Of a stretch of 64,000 nt of DNA, positions 28,484 through 36,409 are shown piece by piece. The stretch's first letter is position 1; each line of letters starts with the position of its first letter. A program made the position numbers and the translations under genes. Below the pieces are notes generated by a model, which saw only the letters and a list, made by a program, of their open reading frames with translations, searched no databases and was not told where the DNA came from. Origin of the DNA: Halorientalis litorea (lineage in GTDB: Archaea > Halobacteriota > Halobacteria > Halobacteriales > Haloarculaceae). The stretch is from assembly GCF_023028225.1 (NCBI RefSeq), contig NZ_CP095482.1:558001-622000 (forward strand). Direction: 5' to 3'.

Positions 28484-28661
28484 GGCCGTCATCGACGCGG
28501 TACGAGCGTTCTTGTACGGAGCCGTGACCAGACCGGTGCGTGACCTGACCACGGTTCCGGCGCGGTTCGCGGGTGTGCGACACGCCGCGTCGGTCACGGA
28601 GTGTCGCCTGTTCGCCACTGCGAGACGGAACGCCGAAGTCGTCGGCACCCTCGGTTCCGGT

Positions 28662-29345
28662 ATGGGCACGCCGCTCGCCTCCCGGGAGGCACAGACCGAG
28701 GAAGTCATCGAGCGACTGTACGAGGAGTACCCCGACACGACCATCTCCCTGAACTTCTCGAACCGCTTGGAGTTGCTCGTGGCTGTCATCCTCTCGGCAC
28801 AGTGTACCGACGAGCGCGTGAATACCGAAACCGAACACCTCTTCGAGAAGTACCAGTCGGTCGAGGACTACGCCGAGGCCGACGAGGCGGAACTCGCCGA
28901 GGACCTGAATTCGATTACGTACTACAACAACAAGGCGGGGTACATCAAGAACGCCTGCCAGCAGATGCTCGACGACCACGACGGCGAGGTTCCCGACACG
29001 ATGGCGGCACTGACTGACCTCCCCGGCGTCGGCCGCAAGACGGCGAACGTCGTCCTCCAGCACGGGCACGAAGTGGTCGAGGGCATCGTCGTCGACACGC
29101 ACGTCCAGCGGCTGACCCGGCGGCTGGGTATCACCGAGGAGAAACGACCCGAGGCCATCGAGGCGGACCTCATGCCGCTGGTACCCGAGGACGACTGGCA
29201 ACAGTTCACCCACCTCCTCATCAGTCACGGCCGTGCAGTGTGTACCGCGCGCAACCCCGACTGTGCGGACTGCGCCCTCGAAGACATCTGTCCGTCGTCG
29301 AAACTGGACAGCGACACCGACCTCGCCAGCGGCGAGGCGTGGTAA
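28662..29345 (+). CDS. nth: Endonuclease III (DNA glycosylase/AP lyase)
   Basis: 227 residues from ATG 28662 (MGTPLASREAQTEE). The helix-hairpin-helix LPGVGRKTANVVL (about 121-133) holds the catalytic Lys, and VDTHVQRLTRRLG contains the catalytic Asp. Four Cys in a C-x6-C-x2-C-x5-C pattern (CTARNPDCADCALEDIC) bind the 4Fe-4S cluster. It removes oxidised pyrimidines in base excision repair. The frame runs upstream to 28512, but the extra 50 residues do not match the family. Confidence 0.94.
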   Translation: MGTPLASREAQTEEVIERLYEEYPDTTISLNFSNRLELLVAVILSAQCTDERVNTETEHLFEKYQSVEDYAEADEAELAEDLNSITYYNNKAGYIKNACQQMLDDHDGEVPDTMAALTDLPGVGRKTANVVLQHGHEVVEGIVVDTHVQRLTRRLGITEEKRPEAIEADLMPLVPEDDWQQFTHLLISHGRAVCTARNPDCADCALEDICPSSKLDSDTDLASGEAW

Positions 29346-29790: not shown

Positions 29791-30279
29791 TTACAGGGCG
29801 TACTTGAAGAGGAATCGGGTGAGACCGACGAGGTAGGCGAGGAGCCAGAAGAACACGTAGCCGAAGACGCCGATGCGGATGCGTCGCCGCCAGAACTGCA
29901 TCTGCTCGGACCCGATTTCGTCGAGCAGTACGTCCTCGTCGTAGTCGTTGTAGAGGTCGTGTTCGTACTTCGCGCGGAACACGCGCACGATACCCGTGAA
30001 CGCGAACGTGAGCATGGCGTAGGCCTGTAATCCGAGGAACGCGTGGACCACGGTCGCGCCACCGATTTGCGTGAGAAGGCGCGGGAGCATCCACGTGAGG
30101 AGCGGGACCGTCGTCAGGAGCAGTCCCGTCAGGATGAACTTCAGGTGGTGGGTCAGCACGCCCCACGTGACCCCTTCGGCGTCTATCATTATCCACGCGC
30201 CGTAGAGAAAACAGGGGAAACTGAGCGTGACGGCGAAAAGGACGACAGTGGCAATCGCCGCGTCCGACAACCCGACCAT
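29791..30279 (-). CDS. Four-helix membrane protein of the bc-complex cluster (DUF7321-like)
   Basis: 162 residues with four hydrophobic helices (about 8-30, 44-66, 77-101 and 137-160) and a charged loop with DYDEDVLLDEIG between the last two. It flanks the halocyanin-Rieske-cytochrome b operon, divergent from the DUF7319-like gene with 92 bp between. This neighbourhood recurs in haloarchaea. A His pair in the second region (LTHHLKF) and another His (VVHAFLG) might bind heme, but this is not established. Confidence 0.78.
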   Translation of the reverse strand: MVGLSDAAIATVVLFAVTLSFPCFLYGAWIMIDAEGVTWGVLTHHLKFILTGLLLTTVPLLTWMLPRLLTQIGGATVVHAFLGLQAYAMLTFAFTGIVRVFRAKYEHDLYNDYDEDVLLDEIGSEQMQFWRRRIRIGVFGYVFFWLLAYLVGLTRFLFKYAL

Positions 30280-30371
30280 AGCCGCGCCTAGCCACTGGGC
30301 GCGCTAAAGCGTGCCGAAAGGCGGAGACGGGGTCGGAAAGCGTTTACCGCTCCCGTTCGTATCCACGTGTG

Positions 30372-31337
30372 ATGGCCGACCCAGAGTCGCCACCGAACGG
30401 ACGTCGGGGGGACGACGAACAGGCCGGGGACCGAGCAGTCACCGCCGACGCCGGCACGGGCGAGGCGGATGAGGCGGACGGAGCGGACCCGGCGGAGGGA
30501 GGTTCGGCGACGGCGGAAGACGCGGAGACGGAGACGCCCACGACGGAACAACTCCGTGCGGAGGTCGAAGAGAAGTACGACTTCGACGAGTTCGGCCCGG
30601 AACAGATGGCGGAGATGTCACCCGAGGAGTGGGAGGCGGCGTTCGACCCGGATACGTGGATAACCGGCGAGGAGTTGCTGGACCGGGTCGAAGCGGACCT
30701 CAAATACCGCGTCGCCATCCGTGACGTGTTCGCCCGCGTGGAGCGACTCCGGGACGGGAACCTCGTCGCGTACTCGGACCAAGGGTACGCGCTCGTCCAA
30801 CCGGACGGGAGCGTCGAGGGGTTCGGCACCGTCGTCAGGGACGTGAAACCCGTCGTCGCACTCTGTTCGATGGACGACTACGATGCACCGGACATGCCGG
30901 ATGGGGAGGTACTGCCGGACCCGGCGGAGGTTCCCGAGGGGACCGGCGAACTCGGCAACCGCGTCCTGCAGGTCATCGCAGGCGTACAGGTGCTGGCTGG
31001 CGTGGGCCTCCTGCTGGCGTGGCTCGGGTTCGTGACGGGACTGCTCTCCGCGCCGCGTGGCGGGCAGGACGTGAACCTGACGTTGCTGGTCGTCGCGGGC
31101 ATCGGCTTCCTGATAATCGGCCTCGTCCTGTTCATGGTCGTGGCGAACGCACGACTGTCCGACCGGTTCCGGGCGGAAGAGTTCCGGAATCGGCTCCGGG
31201 CAGTCGGCGTCGGCGAGGGGGAGTACCCCGAGTTCTTGCCGGTCGAGAACGGTCGGTGGGTCGGCGACGAGGGCGACGGCCGGTCCAGCATTCCCGCCGA
31301 CGACGGCGGAGACGACGGCACCGAACAGTCGGATTGA
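30372..31337 (+). CDS. Acidic membrane protein of the bc-complex cluster (DUF7319-like)
   Basis: 321 residues. A long acidic disordered N-terminus (residues 1-70, Asp/Glu/Ala/Gly) precedes a soluble middle region with TPEEW-like and DPDTW segments. Two membrane helices follow at about 197-223 and 237-260, then a short cytoplasmic end. The ATG at 30372 is preferred to a GTG 3 bp upstream. It precedes the halocyanin gene by 130 bp. Function is unknown; location suggests an accessory role for the respiratory complex. Confidence 0.78.
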   Translation: MADPESPPNGRRGDDEQAGDRAVTADAGTGEADEADGADPAEGGSATAEDAETETPTTEQLRAEVEEKYDFDEFGPEQMAEMSPEEWEAAFDPDTWITGEELLDRVEADLKYRVAIRDVFARVERLRDGNLVAYSDQGYALVQPDGSVEGFGTVVRDVKPVVALCSMDDYDAPDMPDGEVLPDPAEVPEGTGELGNRVLQVIAGVQVLAGVGLLLAWLGFVTGLLSAPRGGQDVNLTLLVVAGIGFLIIGLVLFMVVANARLSDRFRAEEFRNRLRAVGVGEGEYPEFLPVENGRWVGDEGDGRSSIPADDGGDDGTEQSD

Positions 31338-31467
31338 CAGGGCGGTTCGAGCGGGGCACGGAGTCCGTTTTCGTGAGAACCAGAAACAGCGTTAGACCAG
31401 TTCATCGGCGTTCCTGCTGGCGTATTCGGTGGGTTTATACAAACCCAGTCCTGAGATTGAGACGTAT

Positions 31468-32112
31468 ATGAACAGGCGGGACTTCATCCGAACAGCCGGT
31501 GGGACTGCCGGTGCCACCGCCGCCGTGTCCGCGAGCGTGGGCACGGCCGCCGCCTCCGAAGAGGGCGGCGGTGGCGGCGGCCCCGACTTCGGCGGCTACC
31601 TCAGCGGCGCGAACAACTACGACGGGAGCGTGGTCGACGCGACCGGACAGGACGAGGTAACTGTCGAGGTCGGCGCGGGGAGCACTGGCCTCGCGTTCGG
31701 TCCGGCGGCAGTTCACGTCGACAACGGAGCAACCGTCGTCTGGGAGTGGACCGGCGAAGGCGGTGCCCACAACGTCGTCGCCGAGGACGCCGACTTCGAG
31801 TCGGGCGCGCCCATTGGGCAAGCCGGCAACACCTACGAGTACACCTTCGAGGAGGACGGCGTCTACAACTACTACTGCCAGCCGCACAAGGGCAGTGGTA
31901 TGGTCGGTTCCGTCGTCGTCGGCACTGACTACCCCACTGCAAGCAGCGACGGCGGTGGCGGTGGAGAGTTGAACCCCATCCACATGGGTGTCCCGTTCCA
32001 AGCCCACTTCGTCGGCATCGCCACGATACTGATGATGGTGGTTTCGCTGATTTTCACCTTCTTCCTGCTGAAGTACGGTGAATCAGCCCACACCAAAGGA
32101 GGGAGCGACTGA
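31468..32112 (+). CDS. Halocyanin-domain protein with C-terminal membrane helix
   Basis: 214 residues from ATG 31468. A Tat signal (NRRDFIRTAGG) with an Ala-rich end is followed by a Gly linker and one plastocyanin-like domain. Type 1 copper ligands are H101, C137, H140 and M145 (CQPHKGSGM). A membrane helix at about 180-204 anchors the C-terminus. Halocyanins are blue copper electron carriers. As first gene of an operon with Rieske and cytochrome b, and with no cytochrome c1 gene present, it is a good candidate for the electron acceptor of the complex. It overlaps the next gene by 1 bp. Confidence 0.92.
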   Translation: MNRRDFIRTAGGTAGATAAVSASVGTAAASEEGGGGGGPDFGGYLSGANNYDGSVVDATGQDEVTVEVGAGSTGLAFGPAAVHVDNGATVVWEWTGEGGAHNVVAEDADFESGAPIGQAGNTYEYTFEEDGVYNYYCQPHKGSGMVGSVVVGTDYPTASSDGGGGGELNPIHMGVPFQAHFVGIATILMMVVSLIFTFFLLKYGESAHTKGGSD

Positions 32113-32498
32113 TGGCGTCGGAAGGCAGCAGTTACGGCGACATCCACCGCTACGAACCGCCCAGAGAGAGCACCGCCGCGGCACTGGCTATCGTCCTGTT
32201 GACAGTGGTCGAAGTCGTGTTCGTCGGTCTGTTCACCTACGGCCTCATCTCCGGGTGGGGGCTGACTGAAGTCGGGAACATGTATCTCGGCGGCATCCTC
32301 GCCGTCATCTTCGTGGACCTCGCCTTCATCATGCTCCTGTACCGTAAGGAGTTCCTCCCCGACGTGATGATAGTCAAGAAACGTCGGCGCAAGTGGGAGG
32401 ACCTCTACATCCGCGAGGACCAAGTCGACGGCACGAGTCTCGTGGACGACCCGTGGGACGGAGTCAAACGCGCGCTGTACCCCTACTACAAGAAATAA
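32112..32498 (+). CDS. Two-helix membrane protein between halocyanin and Rieske (DUF7318-like)
   Basis: 128 residues. Two membrane helices (about 24-47 and 58-78) are followed by a 50-residue basic cytoplasmic tail (VKKRRRKWEDLYIRE). The ATG overlaps the halocyanin stop by one base, and Rieske begins 3 bp downstream, so it is embedded in the operon and may be a structural subunit of the complex. No heme or metal ligands are evident. Confidence 0.82.
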   Translation: MASEGSSYGDIHRYEPPRESTAAALAIVLLTVVEVVFVGLFTYGLISGWGLTEVGNMYLGGILAVIFVDLAFIMLLYRKEFLPDVMIVKKRRRKWEDLYIREDQVDGTSLVDDPWDGVKRALYPYYKK

Positions 32499-32501
32499 AC
32501 C

Positions 32502-33383
32502 ATGCCACTTGACGAAGACAAATATCCGAGCGAGACGGGCCGACGCCGCTTCGTGAAAGGCGTCGTCGGCAGTGCTGCACTGGCGGGCGTCGGTACCGGC
32601 GGTGCGGCCGCCATCGACACCGCGACATCCCCGACAGGTGTCGGCGGTGGTATCACACAGTTCATCGGTATCGAGAACACCGACGGACCGGCCCCACGCG
32701 GAATGCCGCTCGTTCCGCTGGAGATAGACGACGAGGGGGCACTCCGGGGCGTCTGGCCCGAAGTGCAGACGGAGACGGTCGGTGGCCGTCAAGTAACCAT
32801 CGCCGAGGGCGAAATCAACGGCGTCACCTACTCCTCCTCGTGGTACCAGTACTGCGGCATCCAGAACTACGCCGGACTCGACCCGAGTGCCGACCAAGAC
32901 AACTACTTCCGGTCGGTCGGGTCCCCGCCACCGGGGTTCACGTGGCAGTCCGAAGAGAAGGAGGCCGGCGACAAGTTGTTCGTCGAGGACTTCGACGACT
33001 ACGAAGAGTGGGGCAACGGAATCGGCAACGACGGCGTCGGCAAGCCAGCGGCCGCGAACTGGCGGTCCGACGGCGACGTGCAGTCCATTCCCGTGCAGAT
33101 CGTGCGGAGTCCCCAAGTCGAACAGATGGCGAACGGCGAGGGCGAGTACAGCGACCTGCCCGAACGGGCACAGAGTTTCATCTCCGGTGCGACACAGGAC
33201 GGGTTCATGGCGTGGCTGAACAAGTGCACGCACTTCTGCTGTGTCCCCGGATTCAAGGCGTACGAAGGGAGTGCGAAGTTCGGGGCCGAAAACGAAGTGT
33301 ACTGCCAGTGCCACCAGTCGATATACGACCCGTTCAGCCCCGTCGAACTACAGTTCGTGGCACTACCGCGTCCGGGCGAGTGA
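32502..33383 (+). CDS. petA: Rieske iron-sulfur protein of the bc complex
   Basis: 293 residues. A twin-arginine N-terminus (GRRRFVKGVVGSAALAGV) acts as Tat signal anchor. The Rieske cluster ligands are C242 and H244 (CTHFCC) with C268 and H271 (CQCHQS), and C247/C270 supply the usual disulfide; C246 is an extra Cys. The protein is longer than bacterial Rieske subunits because of an insertion of about 90 residues (roughly 120-210), Asp-rich as in other haloarchaea. It carries electrons from quinol at the outer membrane face to the next carrier. Confidence 0.93.
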   Translation: MPLDEDKYPSETGRRRFVKGVVGSAALAGVGTGGAAAIDTATSPTGVGGGITQFIGIENTDGPAPRGMPLVPLEIDDEGALRGVWPEVQTETVGGRQVTIAEGEINGVTYSSSWYQYCGIQNYAGLDPSADQDNYFRSVGSPPPGFTWQSEEKEAGDKLFVEDFDDYEEWGNGIGNDGVGKPAAANWRSDGDVQSIPVQIVRSPQVEQMANGEGEYSDLPERAQSFISGATQDGFMAWLNKCTHFCCVPGFKAYEGSAKFGAENEVYCQCHQSIYDPFSPVELQFVALPRPGE

Positions 33384-33387
33384 TACA

Positions 33388-34191
33388 ATGAGTCTAAAAA
33401 AGAAAGACGAACACGACCACAAAGGCTGGATGGAGTCCCGCGACCTCACGGTCGTCGAAGAGCGTTACCTCGCGGTGTTGATGTGGCTCGACAAGCGGTT
33501 CAGGTTGGTCGACTACCTCGAACTGCTGGAGGACCTGTACTACAAGGTCAACATGCAGATGCCCAAGAGCCACACCGAGCAGTACGGACTCGACAACAAG
33601 TTCTGGTACTGGTACCCCCTGTACGCGCTCGGGTCGTTCTCGACGTTAGCGTACCTGGTCGCGGCCGTCTCGGGCGCGTTGCTGGGGTTCTACTACGCGC
33701 CGGCCGCCGCGGGTGCGACCGGCGACCCGACCGTCGCGTGGAACTCTGTCGCAGCCATCATGACCGACCTGAACTTCGGGTACATGCTCCGGTCCATCCA
33801 CCGCTGGAGCGCGCAGGTCATGACGGCCGCCGTGTTCCTGCACATGCTCCGTGTGTACTTCACGGGTGCGTACAAGGAACCCCGAGAGCTCAACTGGATT
33901 ATCGGCATCGTCCTCATCTCGATGACGATGGTCTTCGGGTACACCGGGTACCTGCTCCCGTGGAACCAGCTGAGCTTCTGGGCCGGACAGATCGGCGTCG
34001 AGATGGCACTGTCCATCCCGATGGCCGGCGAGTGGGTCGCACAGTTGATGTTCGGCGGGTTCACGCTAACCCAGGCCACGCTGCAACGGATGTACATCCT
34101 GCACGTGTTCTTCCTGCCGTTCCTCGTGACCGCACTCATCGCAGTCCACATCGGCATCGTCTGGATGCAGGGCATCGCGGAACCCCACTGA
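33388..34191 (+). CDS. petB: Cytochrome b, b6-type N-terminal subunit
   Basis: 267 residues from ATG 33388; a longer frame from 33241 shadows the Rieske gene. Four membrane helices carry two His pairs for the b hemes: H138 and H152 (13 residues between) and H239 and H254 (14 between). The 14-residue spacing in the second pair is that of cytochrome b6 rather than mitochondrial cytochrome b. The C-terminal quinone part is a separate gene directly downstream, again as in b6f complexes. The start is 4 bp after the Rieske stop. Confidence 0.93.
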   Translation: MSLKKKDEHDHKGWMESRDLTVVEERYLAVLMWLDKRFRLVDYLELLEDLYYKVNMQMPKSHTEQYGLDNKFWYWYPLYALGSFSTLAYLVAAVSGALLGFYYAPAAAGATGDPTVAWNSVAAIMTDLNFGYMLRSIHRWSAQVMTAAVFLHMLRVYFTGAYKEPRELNWIIGIVLISMTMVFGYTGYLLPWNQLSFWAGQIGVEMALSIPMAGEWVAQLMFGGFTLTQATLQRMYILHVFFLPFLVTALIAVHIGIVWMQGIAEPH

Positions 34192-34195
34192 TACA

Positions 34196-34987
34196 ATGAC
34201 AGCAAACGATACGAACACCGACTCGGAGAAGGTGACTGACGGTGGCGAAGAGGTCGCCACCGACGGCACCGGCATCGTCCCGCCGGACGACGAGACGCCG
34301 ACGTGGCGCGAGCGCAAGGAGCGCACGCAGGGTCTCTCCCGGTTGACCTACGAGTACTTCGAGCGTGCACGCCGTGAGGACCAAGACCTGCGCCAAGAGT
34401 CCAGTTACGTCGAGCGCGACGTGTTGGGCTTCCCGGCGTGGCCCCACGAGATGATTCGGAATCTCGCGCTGACGAGTTTCTTCGTCGGCATGATACTGTT
34501 CCTCTCGGCGACGCTCCCGCCGGAGATGCTACCACCGGCCGACGCATCGAACACGCCCGCGGTCATCCTGCCGGACTGGTACCTCTACTGGTCGTTCGGC
34601 CTGTTGAAACTCGGGCCACTCAACCCCGACCTGAGCCTGCTCGGCGGGCAGAAGCTGATGGCCGACCGGACCTACGGTGTGCTGGCGAACCTCGTTATTG
34701 TCGGTGCCATCACCATCGTCCCGTTCGTGAACAAAGGTGCGGCGCGGCGGCCGGTCGAACAGCCCTTCTGGGCGGCAGTGGGCGTGTTCGGCGTCGTCTT
34801 CGCGGCGACGATTTCCGCGCTCTCCATCAAGAACCTCGTCCCGATGGACTCGCACCTGCTGTTCGACCTGACGTTCCTGCTCCCGTTCGTGGCAGGGTTC
34901 ATCACGTACGCCGTGCTCAAGTCGATGCGCGAGGGGTACATGTTCACCCTCAACCGTCGGTACTACCGGCTCCGCCCACCGAAATAG
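34196..34987 (+). CDS. petD: Cytochrome b C-terminal subunit (subunit IV-like)
   Basis: 263 residues. After a charged N-terminal region of about 85 residues come four membrane helices. The quinol-oxidation motif appears as PDWY (LPDWYLYWSFGLLK, about residue 125), in the position of PEWY in subunit IV and cytochrome b. It completes the split cytochrome b with the b6-type protein 4 bp upstream. The last 30 residues form a basic cytoplasmic end. Confidence 0.92.
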   Translation: MTANDTNTDSEKVTDGGEEVATDGTGIVPPDDETPTWRERKERTQGLSRLTYEYFERARREDQDLRQESSYVERDVLGFPAWPHEMIRNLALTSFFVGMILFLSATLPPEMLPPADASNTPAVILPDWYLYWSFGLLKLGPLNPDLSLLGGQKLMADRTYGVLANLVIVGAITIVPFVNKGAARRPVEQPFWAAVGVFGVVFAATISALSIKNLVPMDSHLLFDLTFLLPFVAGFITYAVLKSMREGYMFTLNRRYYRLRPPK

Positions 34988-34997
34988 CGGGGCCGCG

Positions 34998-35372
34998 ATG
35001 AGTTCTCAGGATTCGTCGTCGCAGTCGACAGCCAACGGGGAGCCACGCGTCCCCGACGACGTTGCCGACGACACCGCGGCGTCGGACGGTGATGGGTCCC
35101 GCGATGTCGAAGTCCCGATGAGAGTGTACAAGGCCGTCACGGTATTCACGACGCTCTTTTCGGTCTTCGCGGTCGTTGGCGGCTTCATTCTCCTCGACTC
35201 GGCGACCAACAGGGCGACTGCGTCGCTCTCGGAAATCAACGCCCCACTCGCGCTCGTCGGCATCGGCCTCATCGTCGCCGGAGCGGCGGCCTACGCGTTC
35301 TCGACACGGTTCCGTGCGGCGGGAATGGGAAAGTCTAAAGACGACACCGACGAACCTTCGGATAATGGCTGA
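34998..35372 (+). CDS. Two-helix membrane protein of the bc operon (DUF7315-like)
   Basis: 124 residues. A Ser/Asp-rich N-terminus of 40 residues, then two membrane helices (about 50-70 and 81-104) and a short polar end. It lies 10 bp after the subunit IV gene and overlaps the next gene by 8 nt, so it belongs to the operon. It may be a small structural subunit; no cofactor ligands are seen. Confidence 0.78.
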   Translation: MSSQDSSSQSTANGEPRVPDDVADDTAASDGDGSRDVEVPMRVYKAVTVFTTLFSVFAVVGGFILLDSATNRATASLSEINAPLALVGIGLIVAGAAAYAFSTRFRAAGMGKSKDDTDEPSDNG

Positions 35373-35631
35373 CGAATTCGCCAAAGGTCTCGGCATCCTG
35401 ACTGTGGCAGGGCTGGGCTGGATGGTGCTGTCTGGTTGGTACACCACCGCCAGTTTCGAGGAGGGACAGCTCATCGCGGCACCACCCGAGAACCCTGACT
35501 TCTACGGGCAGCTCGCCCTGTTCCTCAGGGAGGCACTGTTCTGGTTCGCCATCCTCGGCGCGCTGACGTTTTGGGTCGTCATCCCGGCGGTCCAACAGGC
35601 GCGCGAGACGTGGGCCGAGCGCAGTAGCTAA
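35365..35631 (+). CDS. Two-helix membrane protein ending the bc operon (DUF7314-like)
   Basis: 88 residues from ATG 35365; the longer frame upstream is a shadow of the previous gene. Two membrane helices (about 8-27 and 50-74) are separated by an outer loop rich in Pro and Glu. It is the last gene of the halocyanin-Rieske-cytochrome b operon. Its role is unknown; its regular presence there suggests a subunit or assembly factor. Confidence 0.77.
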   Translation: MADEFAKGLGILTVAGLGWMVLSGWYTTASFEEGQLIAAPPENPDFYGQLALFLREALFWFAILGALTFWVVIPAVQQARETWAERSS

Positions 35632-35971
35632 CTGACGGACGCGGTCTTTTCCCGAAACGCTTCTCACCCGGACAGCGGCCGCCATCGCGTGGCGGCGTGT
35701 GGCAGGTGGGCTACTGTCGTTGCTCTTGCCGCGGAGCATACTGTCAGCGTGTGCCCGACCGACTGCATGTGTGGCACGTCTCTCGACGCGTTAGCCTGCG
35801 CGCTGTCGTGGTCGCTTCCGCAAGTAGGGCCAGCCATCACGTCCGTGCGCCACACCGATGTCGGAAGCGGGCGGTCACTGGCGGCGGACACGCCTCGGAG
35901 ATGCGAGACTGGTCGACTCGTAGCGGTGCGCGAAAAGGTGTGGTATCGGTCGTCCGTGACCGACGGGGCAG
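35632..35971. other. 340-bp stretch without a clear gene
   Basis: Between the end of the bc operon and the convergent DUF7313-like gene. Open frames exist on both strands (for example 35689-36003 plus), but they are Cys/Arg-rich and unlike haloarchaeal proteins. The only distinct structure is a hairpin at 35678-35696. Confidence 0.5.
35678..35696 (+). terminator. 7-bp hairpin after the bc operon
   Basis: GCCGCCA and TGGCGGC pair around a 5-nt loop, 47 bp after the last gene of the operon. The role as a transcription end is inferred only from position. Confidence 0.35.
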
Positions 35972-36409
35972 TCAGACGATGGCCGACCAGACGGGTTCGA
36001 TGACGAAGAACAGGGTCTGGTAGGCCGCGTACAGGAACACGAGGCCGGACGCGGCGATACCGGCTTTCGGGCGTTCGAGGCTGATGCCCCGGCGGGCTTC
36101 GACCTTACGGGCCTCGAACTCGAAGAAGTCGCTGACGAAGGCACCGAGGACGAGCGTCGACATCACGATGCCACCGTGGGGGTGCAGCGTGGTGTAGTAG
36201 AACGCCGCCGCCGCGAGGGCGACGTTGGCCGCCTCGTGGGGAATGAACCGAGAGACGGCGTCGGCACCGTCTGCGGCCTGCGAGACGTGTTTCCGGTGTG
36301 CGATGGCACGCGTTCCGATGTTCACCACTGCGAGGACGAGGATGACCCACTCTATGTACGGACCGACTAAGGTGTCGAGCGGGCCGAAAAGCGTCACCGA
36401 TGGTTCCAT
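35972..36409 (-). CDS. Membrane protein flanking the bc operon (DUF7313-like)
   Basis: 145 residues with four hydrophobic segments (about 17-34, 58-75, 80-95 and 118-140). It points toward the bc operon from the other side and is commonly found there in haloarchaea. Two His residues (RKHV, LHPHGG) sit near membrane boundaries. Function unknown. Confidence 0.78.
   Translation of the reverse strand: MEPSVTLFGPLDTLVGPYIEWVILVLAVVNIGTRAIAHRKHVSQAADGADAVSRFIPHEAANVALAAAAFYYTTLHPHGGIVMSTLVLGAFVSDFFEFEARKVEARRGISLERPKAGIAASGLVFLYAAYQTLFFVIEPVWSAIV

Follow-up and report, generated by a model that had tools for sequence, protein, structure and literature searches.

Sequence evidence for a proposed haloarchaeal menaquinol:halocyanin oxidoreductase with a circularly permuted Rieske protein

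Introduction

The b6f complexes and the Bacillus-type bc complexes have a split cytochrome b, in which 14 residues intervene in the second histidine pair and a subunit IV is encoded separately. A Gly-rich Rieske hinge is common to these complexes and to the haloarchaeal complex considered here. Two haloarchaeal Rieske/cytochrome b complexes were reportedly described by Baymann et al. in 2012. The present analysis concerns a gene cluster in a 64,000-nucleotide stretch of Halorientalis litorea (contig NZ_CP095482.1, positions 558,001 to 622,000; hereafter the window, to which all coordinates refer) that encodes a Rieske protein (PetA), a b6-type cytochrome b (PetB), a subunit-IV-like protein (PetD), a halocyanin and six proteins that fall into Pfam families of the domain of unknown function (DUF) type. 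The split cytochrome b, the 14-residue spacing and subunit IV are shared with the b6f and Bacillus-type complexes; in contrast to them, the haloarchaeal cluster lacks cytochrome f or a fused cytochrome c, lacks the haem-ci cysteine, contains a permuted Rieske protein, has unrelated small proteins and carries PDWY rather than PEWY. The actinobacterial QcrABC complex provides a second comparison. Its acceptor is the dihaem cytochrome c QcrC, and its cytochrome b is unsplit. QcrA has an N-terminal membrane module homologous to DUF7318 and a C-terminal segment, GPAxRxLPQLPIxxDxEGYL, homologous to a displaced block of PetA, but QcrA keeps both on a single chain of canonical order, unlike DUF7318 plus a permuted PetA.

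Parts of the haloarchaeal system have been described previously. Main-text passages of PMC8305020 report that haloarchaeal petABC resembles the chloroplast b6f complex, that about one third of haloarchaea lack petABC, that halocyanin is probably the one-electron carrier and that petABD correspond to HVO_2620, HVO_0842 and HVO_0841. The b6-like PetB, PetD and Rieske core, the probable carrier and the patchy presence are those of the cluster studied here; the same passages contain neither a permutation of PetA, nor the identity of DUF7318, nor co-inheritance of DUF proteins. A bc1 complex has been proposed to couple halocyanins to the quinone pool (PMC3403918), and the failure to find a gene that encodes the c-type haem protein of bc complexes in haloarchaea has been termed the 'haloarchaea paradox' (PMC4429474). 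Given the proposals in PMC8305020 and PMC3403918, a b6-type complex III that lacks cytochrome c1 and feeds halocyanin is therefore not new. No published mention of a permuted haloarchaeal Rieske protein was found within the literature searched, in which the PetA permutation, the equation of DUF7318 with a QcrA module, the strict DUF co-inheritance and a relative of the cluster in a groundwater archaeon also appear to be new.

We propose that the cluster likely encodes a haloarchaeal complex III that passes electrons from menaquinol to halocyanin and combines a permuted Rieske protein on a Gly-rich hinge, a QcrA module in the form of DUF7318 and five accessory DUF proteins. An earlier note on this DNA, made from the letters alone, had suggested a distinct quinol:halocyanin oxidoreductase with small proteins of its own. 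Co-occurrence, gene order and the operon slot shared with the groundwater relative support that suggestion well, although the complex itself had been published before. The earlier note missed the circular permutation of the Rieske protein, the most unusual feature of the locus.

Results and discussion

Order of the Rieske blocks in PetA

The cluster ligands of PetA are C242 and H244 in box I (C242-T-H244-F-C246-C247) and C268 and H271 in box II (C268-Q-C270-H271-Q-S); CTHxCC and CxCH are invariant in 34 aligned PetA orthologues. The chain terminates about 20 residues past box II. The Pro-loop and last-strand sequence that other Rieske proteins carry after box II, GPAPRGMPLVPLEIDDEGALRG, is instead located at residues 62-83, with the displaced block lying about 180 residues ahead of box I. 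Because PetA is rearranged in this way, the Pfam Rieske model PF00355 misses it in the genome, scoring it at 12.3 bits against a cut-off of 20.3.

A profile was built from nine canonical Rieske proteins that belong to the second type of complex in the haloarchaeal class. PetA proteins match this profile as two blocks in inverted order that meet at profile position 170/171, and residues ∼54-80 of the PetA orthologues align with profile positions 171-196. A summed-score scan of circular cuts was uninformative, as HMMER adds blocks in any order, and single-domain scores and pairwise alignments were used instead. Restoring the canonical order raised the mean best single-domain score of 45 PetA proteins from 20.1 to 29.3 bits, compared with 21.1 ± 0.09 when the moved block was shuffled and a maximum of 21.2 when other segments of the same proteins were appended. 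Pairwise local alignment with the Rieske protein of the groundwater relative (contig L124, below) gave a mean of 95.3 for native and 130.4 for order-restored PetA, with improvement in all 45 proteins and a shuffled-block null of 95.7 ± 0.25. BLAST of PetA against the L124 Rieske protein likewise matched segments in inverted order. In a profile search of the PDB, PetA residues 60-82 aligned with the C-terminal residues 369-390 of actinobacterial QcrA, residues 168-273 aligned separately with box I and box II of Rhodobacter-type Rieske proteins, and both blocks became colinear with QcrA chain 7q21 once the order was restored. By these sequence comparisons, the Rieske head of PetA is circularly permuted.

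Exactly six cysteines are present in 40 of the 45 PetA proteins: two iron ligands, the canonical disulfide pair C247/C270, and C118 and C246. CxHxCC and [YF]CG co-occur in all 45 and also in the L124 Rieske protein, which has YCG, while the nine canonical Rieske proteins contain no CxHxCC and no YCG. A second disulfide, C118-C246, probably links the YCG segment to box I. The twin-arginine translocation (Tat) signal/anchor of PetA is followed by a Gly-rich stretch in which G46 and G48-G50 are invariant, and the Pro-loop block comes directly next. This stretch resembles the hinge of b6f Rieske proteins. In some genomes, additional copies of the permuted Rieske gene were observed, at L125:3538-4782, L126:4185-5123 and L127:4216-5127, where the surrounding 9 kb contain no other complex III genes.

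A canonical-order relative in a groundwater archaeon

A search of 393 genomes from the phylum gave full-length matches to permuted PetA in haloarchaea only. The single partial match came from the euryarchaeal metagenome-assembled genome (MAG) NC_groundwater_1310_Ag_S-0.2um_68_50, contig JACQPP010000140.1 (handled here as L124 and L129). The unpermuted form was found at this one contig locus only, in a single genome out of the 393 from the phylum and the 58 from its class. An open reading frame (ORF) beside the operon resembles, by eye only, an archaeal-type shikimate kinase, and the contig is therefore probably archaeal.

The L124 operon has the same order as the haloarchaeal one, an anchored carrier followed by a DUF7318 homologue (E 3e-12, beside the Rieske gene), the Rieske protein, PetB and PetD. 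The 238-residue Rieske protein contains CPHACC and CICHDSRYDP followed by the C-terminal GGPAKRALPQIPIKIVDGRIIGAPEKPDWYVYCGVDVE, which is the canonical order; haloarchaeal PetA bears this C-terminal block, including W-x-Y-C-G, at its N-terminus. L124 PetB is 49% identical to PetB of the window and, in contrast to it, retains the haem-ci cysteine (FYCLGG; YCLGG motif). The carrier also differs, a C-terminally anchored monohaem cytochrome c (CVSCH) occupying the slot of halocyanin. Halocyanin corresponds to this cytochrome in both position and topology, and we infer from the shared slot that it replaced an anchored cytochrome c. L124 PetD (L124:8096-9067) differs from its haloarchaeal counterpart in carrying a fused domain at its C-terminus that has two cysteine motifs of the 4Fe-4S type.

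DUF7318 as a separate QcrA module

NF050121, the actinobacterial QcrA model of 319 positions, matched all 26 aligned DUF7318 proteins (best E 6e-6) and was the one NCBIfam model to match DUF7318, with the window protein aligning to profile positions 20-124. The match covers the N-terminal part only, and its 21.4 bits compare with the 275 bits set for full-length QcrA. Two Rieske proteins from the second haloarchaeal complexes matched NF050121 only from position 121 or 123 to 315. These matches complement those of DUF7318, and QcrA is therefore represented by two genes, DUF7318 and a Tat-exported Rieske protein. Profile homology thus identifies DUF7318 as a homologue of the N-terminal membrane module of QcrA carried on its own gene; the PDB sequence search gave no useful match for DUF7318, and the homology rests on NCBIfam. 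In several second complexes the Rieske gene is immediately preceded by a DUF7318-like gene, and on these matches the QcrA split is common to both types of haloarchaeal complex. At five such loci (L092-L096) the separate DUF7318-like gene directly precedes a canonical-order Rieske gene, which is followed by an unsplit cytochrome b. The six proteins first described as orphans all belong to Pfam families (DUF7321, 7319, 7318, 7315, 7314 and 7313), and DUF7318, as a QcrA module, is no orphan.

Cytochrome b subunits and the candidate acceptor

PF00033 and PF00032 match separate genes in the window, and cytochrome b was split in all 60 haloarchaeal loci sampled (12 kb neighborhoods from ten families). 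The haem-ligating pairs of PetB, H138/H152 and H239/H254, show at least 95% conservation across 61 orthologues, with 14 residues intervening in the second pair as in b6, and the Qo motif PDWY of PetD is invariant in 61 orthologues. These results bear out the initial reading of a b6-type cytochrome b with a separate subunit IV. The cysteine that carries covalent haem ci in b6f complexes proper was found in none of 60 haloarchaeal PetB proteins, the corresponding column being Ala in 24, Thr in 18 and Ser in 18. Haem ci was accordingly rejected as a solution to the c-type-haem 'haloarchaea paradox'. PetB is the sole Cytochrome_B match in the H. litorea genome and therefore belongs to its only complex III. 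No cytochrome c1 or f was found in the cluster by ORF and Pfam/NCBIfam scans, in agreement with the earlier note (no genome-wide scan for c-type cytochromes was made).

The halocyanin scores 147.7 bits against a TIGR03102 cut-off of 93.8. Its type-1 copper ligands H101, C137, H140 and M145 are kept in at least 95% of 61 orthologues, and a hydrophobic helix is present at its C-terminus, confirming the initial description of a Tat-exported halocyanin with these ligands and a helix of its own. H180, where the membrane anchor begins, and KYGES after the helix are also conserved. We propose that the operon halocyanin is the acceptor of electrons from the Rieske cluster. This role, also put forward in the earlier note, gains from the conserved ligands and from the slot shared with the L124 cytochrome c, although it had already been proposed in the literature. 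Halocyanin genes also adjoin complexes of the second type, with unsplit cytochrome b, at four loci (L098 and L101-L103), and coupling to halocyanin may extend beyond the b6-type complex.

Co-inheritance and gene order of the DUF proteins

Co-occurrence was scored in 145 haloarchaeal genomes, with b6-type PetB counted as present above 400 bits. PetB was present in 102. DUF7318, DUF7315, DUF7314 and DUF7313 were each found in exactly these 102 genomes (145/145 concordant), and DUF7319 and DUF7321 in 101 of them (144/145 concordant); none of the six occurred in the 43 genomes without b6-type PetB. Four genomes (G001, G002, G010 and G039) contain only another complex, with unsplit cytochrome b, and none of the six DUF proteins. 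The co-occurrence analysis suggested at the outset thus gave an essentially perfect correlation. One small genome (G021; locus L091) has PetB, PetD, DUF7318, DUF7315, DUF7314 and DUF7313 without DUF7319 and DUF7321, and may show a minimal set.

The conserved order in the 60 neighborhoods is DUF7321 (divergent), DUF7319, halocyanin, DUF7318, (Rieske), PetB, PetD, DUF7315 and DUF7314, and its recurrence across ten haloarchaeal families is far beyond chance. The AlphaFold2 (AF2) model of DUF7321 has a predicted local distance difference test (pLDDT) score of 91 and helices at residues 6-33, 39-71, 74-106 and 127-161; no fold match below E 0.4 was found among known structures. A bis-His haem protein was considered for DUF7321 and rejected, since H45 and H79 each start successive helices and so probably lie on opposite sides of the membrane.

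Alternative explanations

Several results weigh against parts of the proposed complex. With full sequences, order-restored PetA scored barely above native PetA in the PDB search (26.3 versus 22.5 bits for the best QcrA), a small gap that arises because HMMER sums the blocks. Foldseek with the AF2 model of PetA (pLDDT 84.5) returned no Rieske match, which neither confirms nor denies the fold because alignments follow sequence order and may miss a permuted one. The unpermuted relative is one MAG contig; the similarity between the anchors of halocyanin and the L124 cytochrome c is weak (11.1 bits, E 0.13) and only suggestive; and co-occurrence cannot tell a subunit from an assembly factor. The Foldseek result would suit a PetA that is not permuted, in which the N-terminal GPAPRxMPxIP arose by chance or convergence and the genuine Pro-loop is the short C-terminal LPRP end, and PetA does terminate after box II in (F)VAxPRP, vaguely like a truncated Pro-loop. 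We consider this very improbable: the matched stretch is 25-27 residues long rather than four and runs on through the last strands to W-x-Y-C-G, as at the end of the L124 Rieske protein; the block match is exact to the position (profile 170/171) and lost on shuffling; and GPAP after box II occurs in 0/45 PetA proteins. The permuted PetA could also pass its electrons to a different halocyanin or directly to an oxidase, and haloarchaea do contain several halocyanins, eight being given in PMC12175516. However, the operon halocyanin lies directly upstream of DUF7318 in 60/60 neighborhoods and the L124 cytochrome c fills that same slot, making another acceptor unlikely.

The DUF genes could travel by linkage or shared ancestry without a functional tie to complex III, as most of them cluster with petBD and one deletion could remove them. 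Yet DUF7313 is far from the operon in many genomes (e.g., G063, G109, G045 and G069), always with PetB, DUF7315/7314 are unlinked in two (G075 and G123), and petA is unlinked in all genomes tested of one family (f4). These unlinked genes are still kept or lost with petB, and linkage alone is therefore insufficient. Moreover, petB and the DUF genes vary together within three families (f1, f2 and f3), and both states inside each family imply at least three separate joint losses or gains, leaving passive linkage extremely unlikely. A functional tie may nevertheless take the form of complex-specific maturation or assembly, with the five remaining DUF proteins serving Fe-S or haem insertion, Tat export or copper loading of halocyanin rather than being subunits. 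DUF7321 and DUF7313 are encoded on the opposite strand, the latter often unlinked; a large portion of DUF7319 is acidic and soluble; DUF7321 and DUF7313 resemble no solved subunit in sequence, neither giving a PDB sequence match of note; and the L124 contig has the core without DUF7321, 7319, 7315, 7314 or 7313. On the other hand, nearly every operon has DUF7315 and DUF7314 after PetD, and in being tiny membrane proteins both recall the small subunits of b6f. An assembly role for the five falls only a little short of an even chance.

A working model for the complex

In the proposed oxidoreductase, by analogy with the family, menaquinol would be oxidized at a Qo site formed by PDWY of PetD and the Rieske cluster. 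One electron would pass from the Rieske head to the membrane-tethered operon halocyanin and on to a haem-copper oxidase, and the other through haems bL and bH to the Qi side. The anchor and Gly-rich hinge are attached to the PetA chain immediately ahead of the Pro-loop block and not ahead of the first strand, and the tether would meet the Rieske head near its cluster-binding side. DUF7318 would supply the QcrA-type N-terminal membrane module on a separate polypeptide, and DUF7321, 7319, 7315, 7314 and 7313 would be accessory subunits or dedicated assembly factors of the b6-type complex only.

Textbook accounts of energy conservation include the motion of the Rieske head, whose fold order had counted as fixed. 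A natural permutant shifts the tether elsewhere on the domain and allows a direct test of what tether geometry does in quinol bifurcation. The L124 relative gives a concrete picture of a possible exchange of a cytochrome for a copper protein, and six uncharacterized Pfam families become complex III candidates for knock-outs in Haloferax volcanii. In its broadest form, for which we see the chances as evenly balanced, the model holds that most members of an archaeal class respire by means of a complex III built on a naturally permuted catalytic Rieske protein, with its hinge beside the cluster side, its head swing rebuilt around a tethered copper protein, QcrA split to give DUF7318, and five haloarchaea-specific proteins as integral subunits.

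Gene content and neighboring genes

All ten ORFs that the earlier note mentions outright or by implication are present at the positions given (Table 1).

Table 1. Features of the candidate complex III locus of H. litorea (window positions)
Feature	Position	Strand	Matches and properties
DUF7321	29791..30279	-	PF24007 257 bits; predicted four-helix membrane protein, invariant His H45 and H79
DUF7319	30369/30372..31337	+	PF24003 315 bits; acidic soluble N-terminal part and two hydrophobic helices
Halocyanin, Tat signal, C-terminal membrane anchor	31468..32112	+	TIGR03102 147.7 bits; Pfam Copper-bind
DUF7318	32112..32498	+	PF24002 246 bits; NF050121 QcrA profile 20-124
PetA, circularly permuted Rieske [2Fe-2S], Tat signal, Gly-rich hinge, two probable disulfides	32502..33383	+	
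PetA residues 50-86: pre-Pro-loop strand, Pro-loop GPAPRGMP, last strands	32649..32759	+	
PetA residues 242-273: box I CTHFCC, box II CQCHQS	33225..33320	+	
PetB, b6-type cytochrome b	33388..34191	+	PF00033 (Cytochrome_B) 153 bits
PetD, subunit-IV-like, PDWY	34196..34987	+	PF00032 (Cytochrom_B_C) E 1.5e-7
DUF7315, small membrane protein, two hydrophobic helices	34998..35372	+	PF23997 108 bits
DUF7314, small membrane protein, two hydrophobic helices	35365..35631	+	PF23996 134 bits
DUF7313, multi-helix membrane protein	35972..36409	-	PF23995 209 bits

An endonuclease III gene (nth) at 28512-29345 of the window is a near-constant neighbor of the complex III cluster. It was located inside the 12 kb neighborhood in 54 of the 60 haloarchaeal loci and also near the L124 operon (L124:4242-4970). 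That nth accompanies the cluster in haloarchaea as well as in a relative outside them points to a common origin of the locus.

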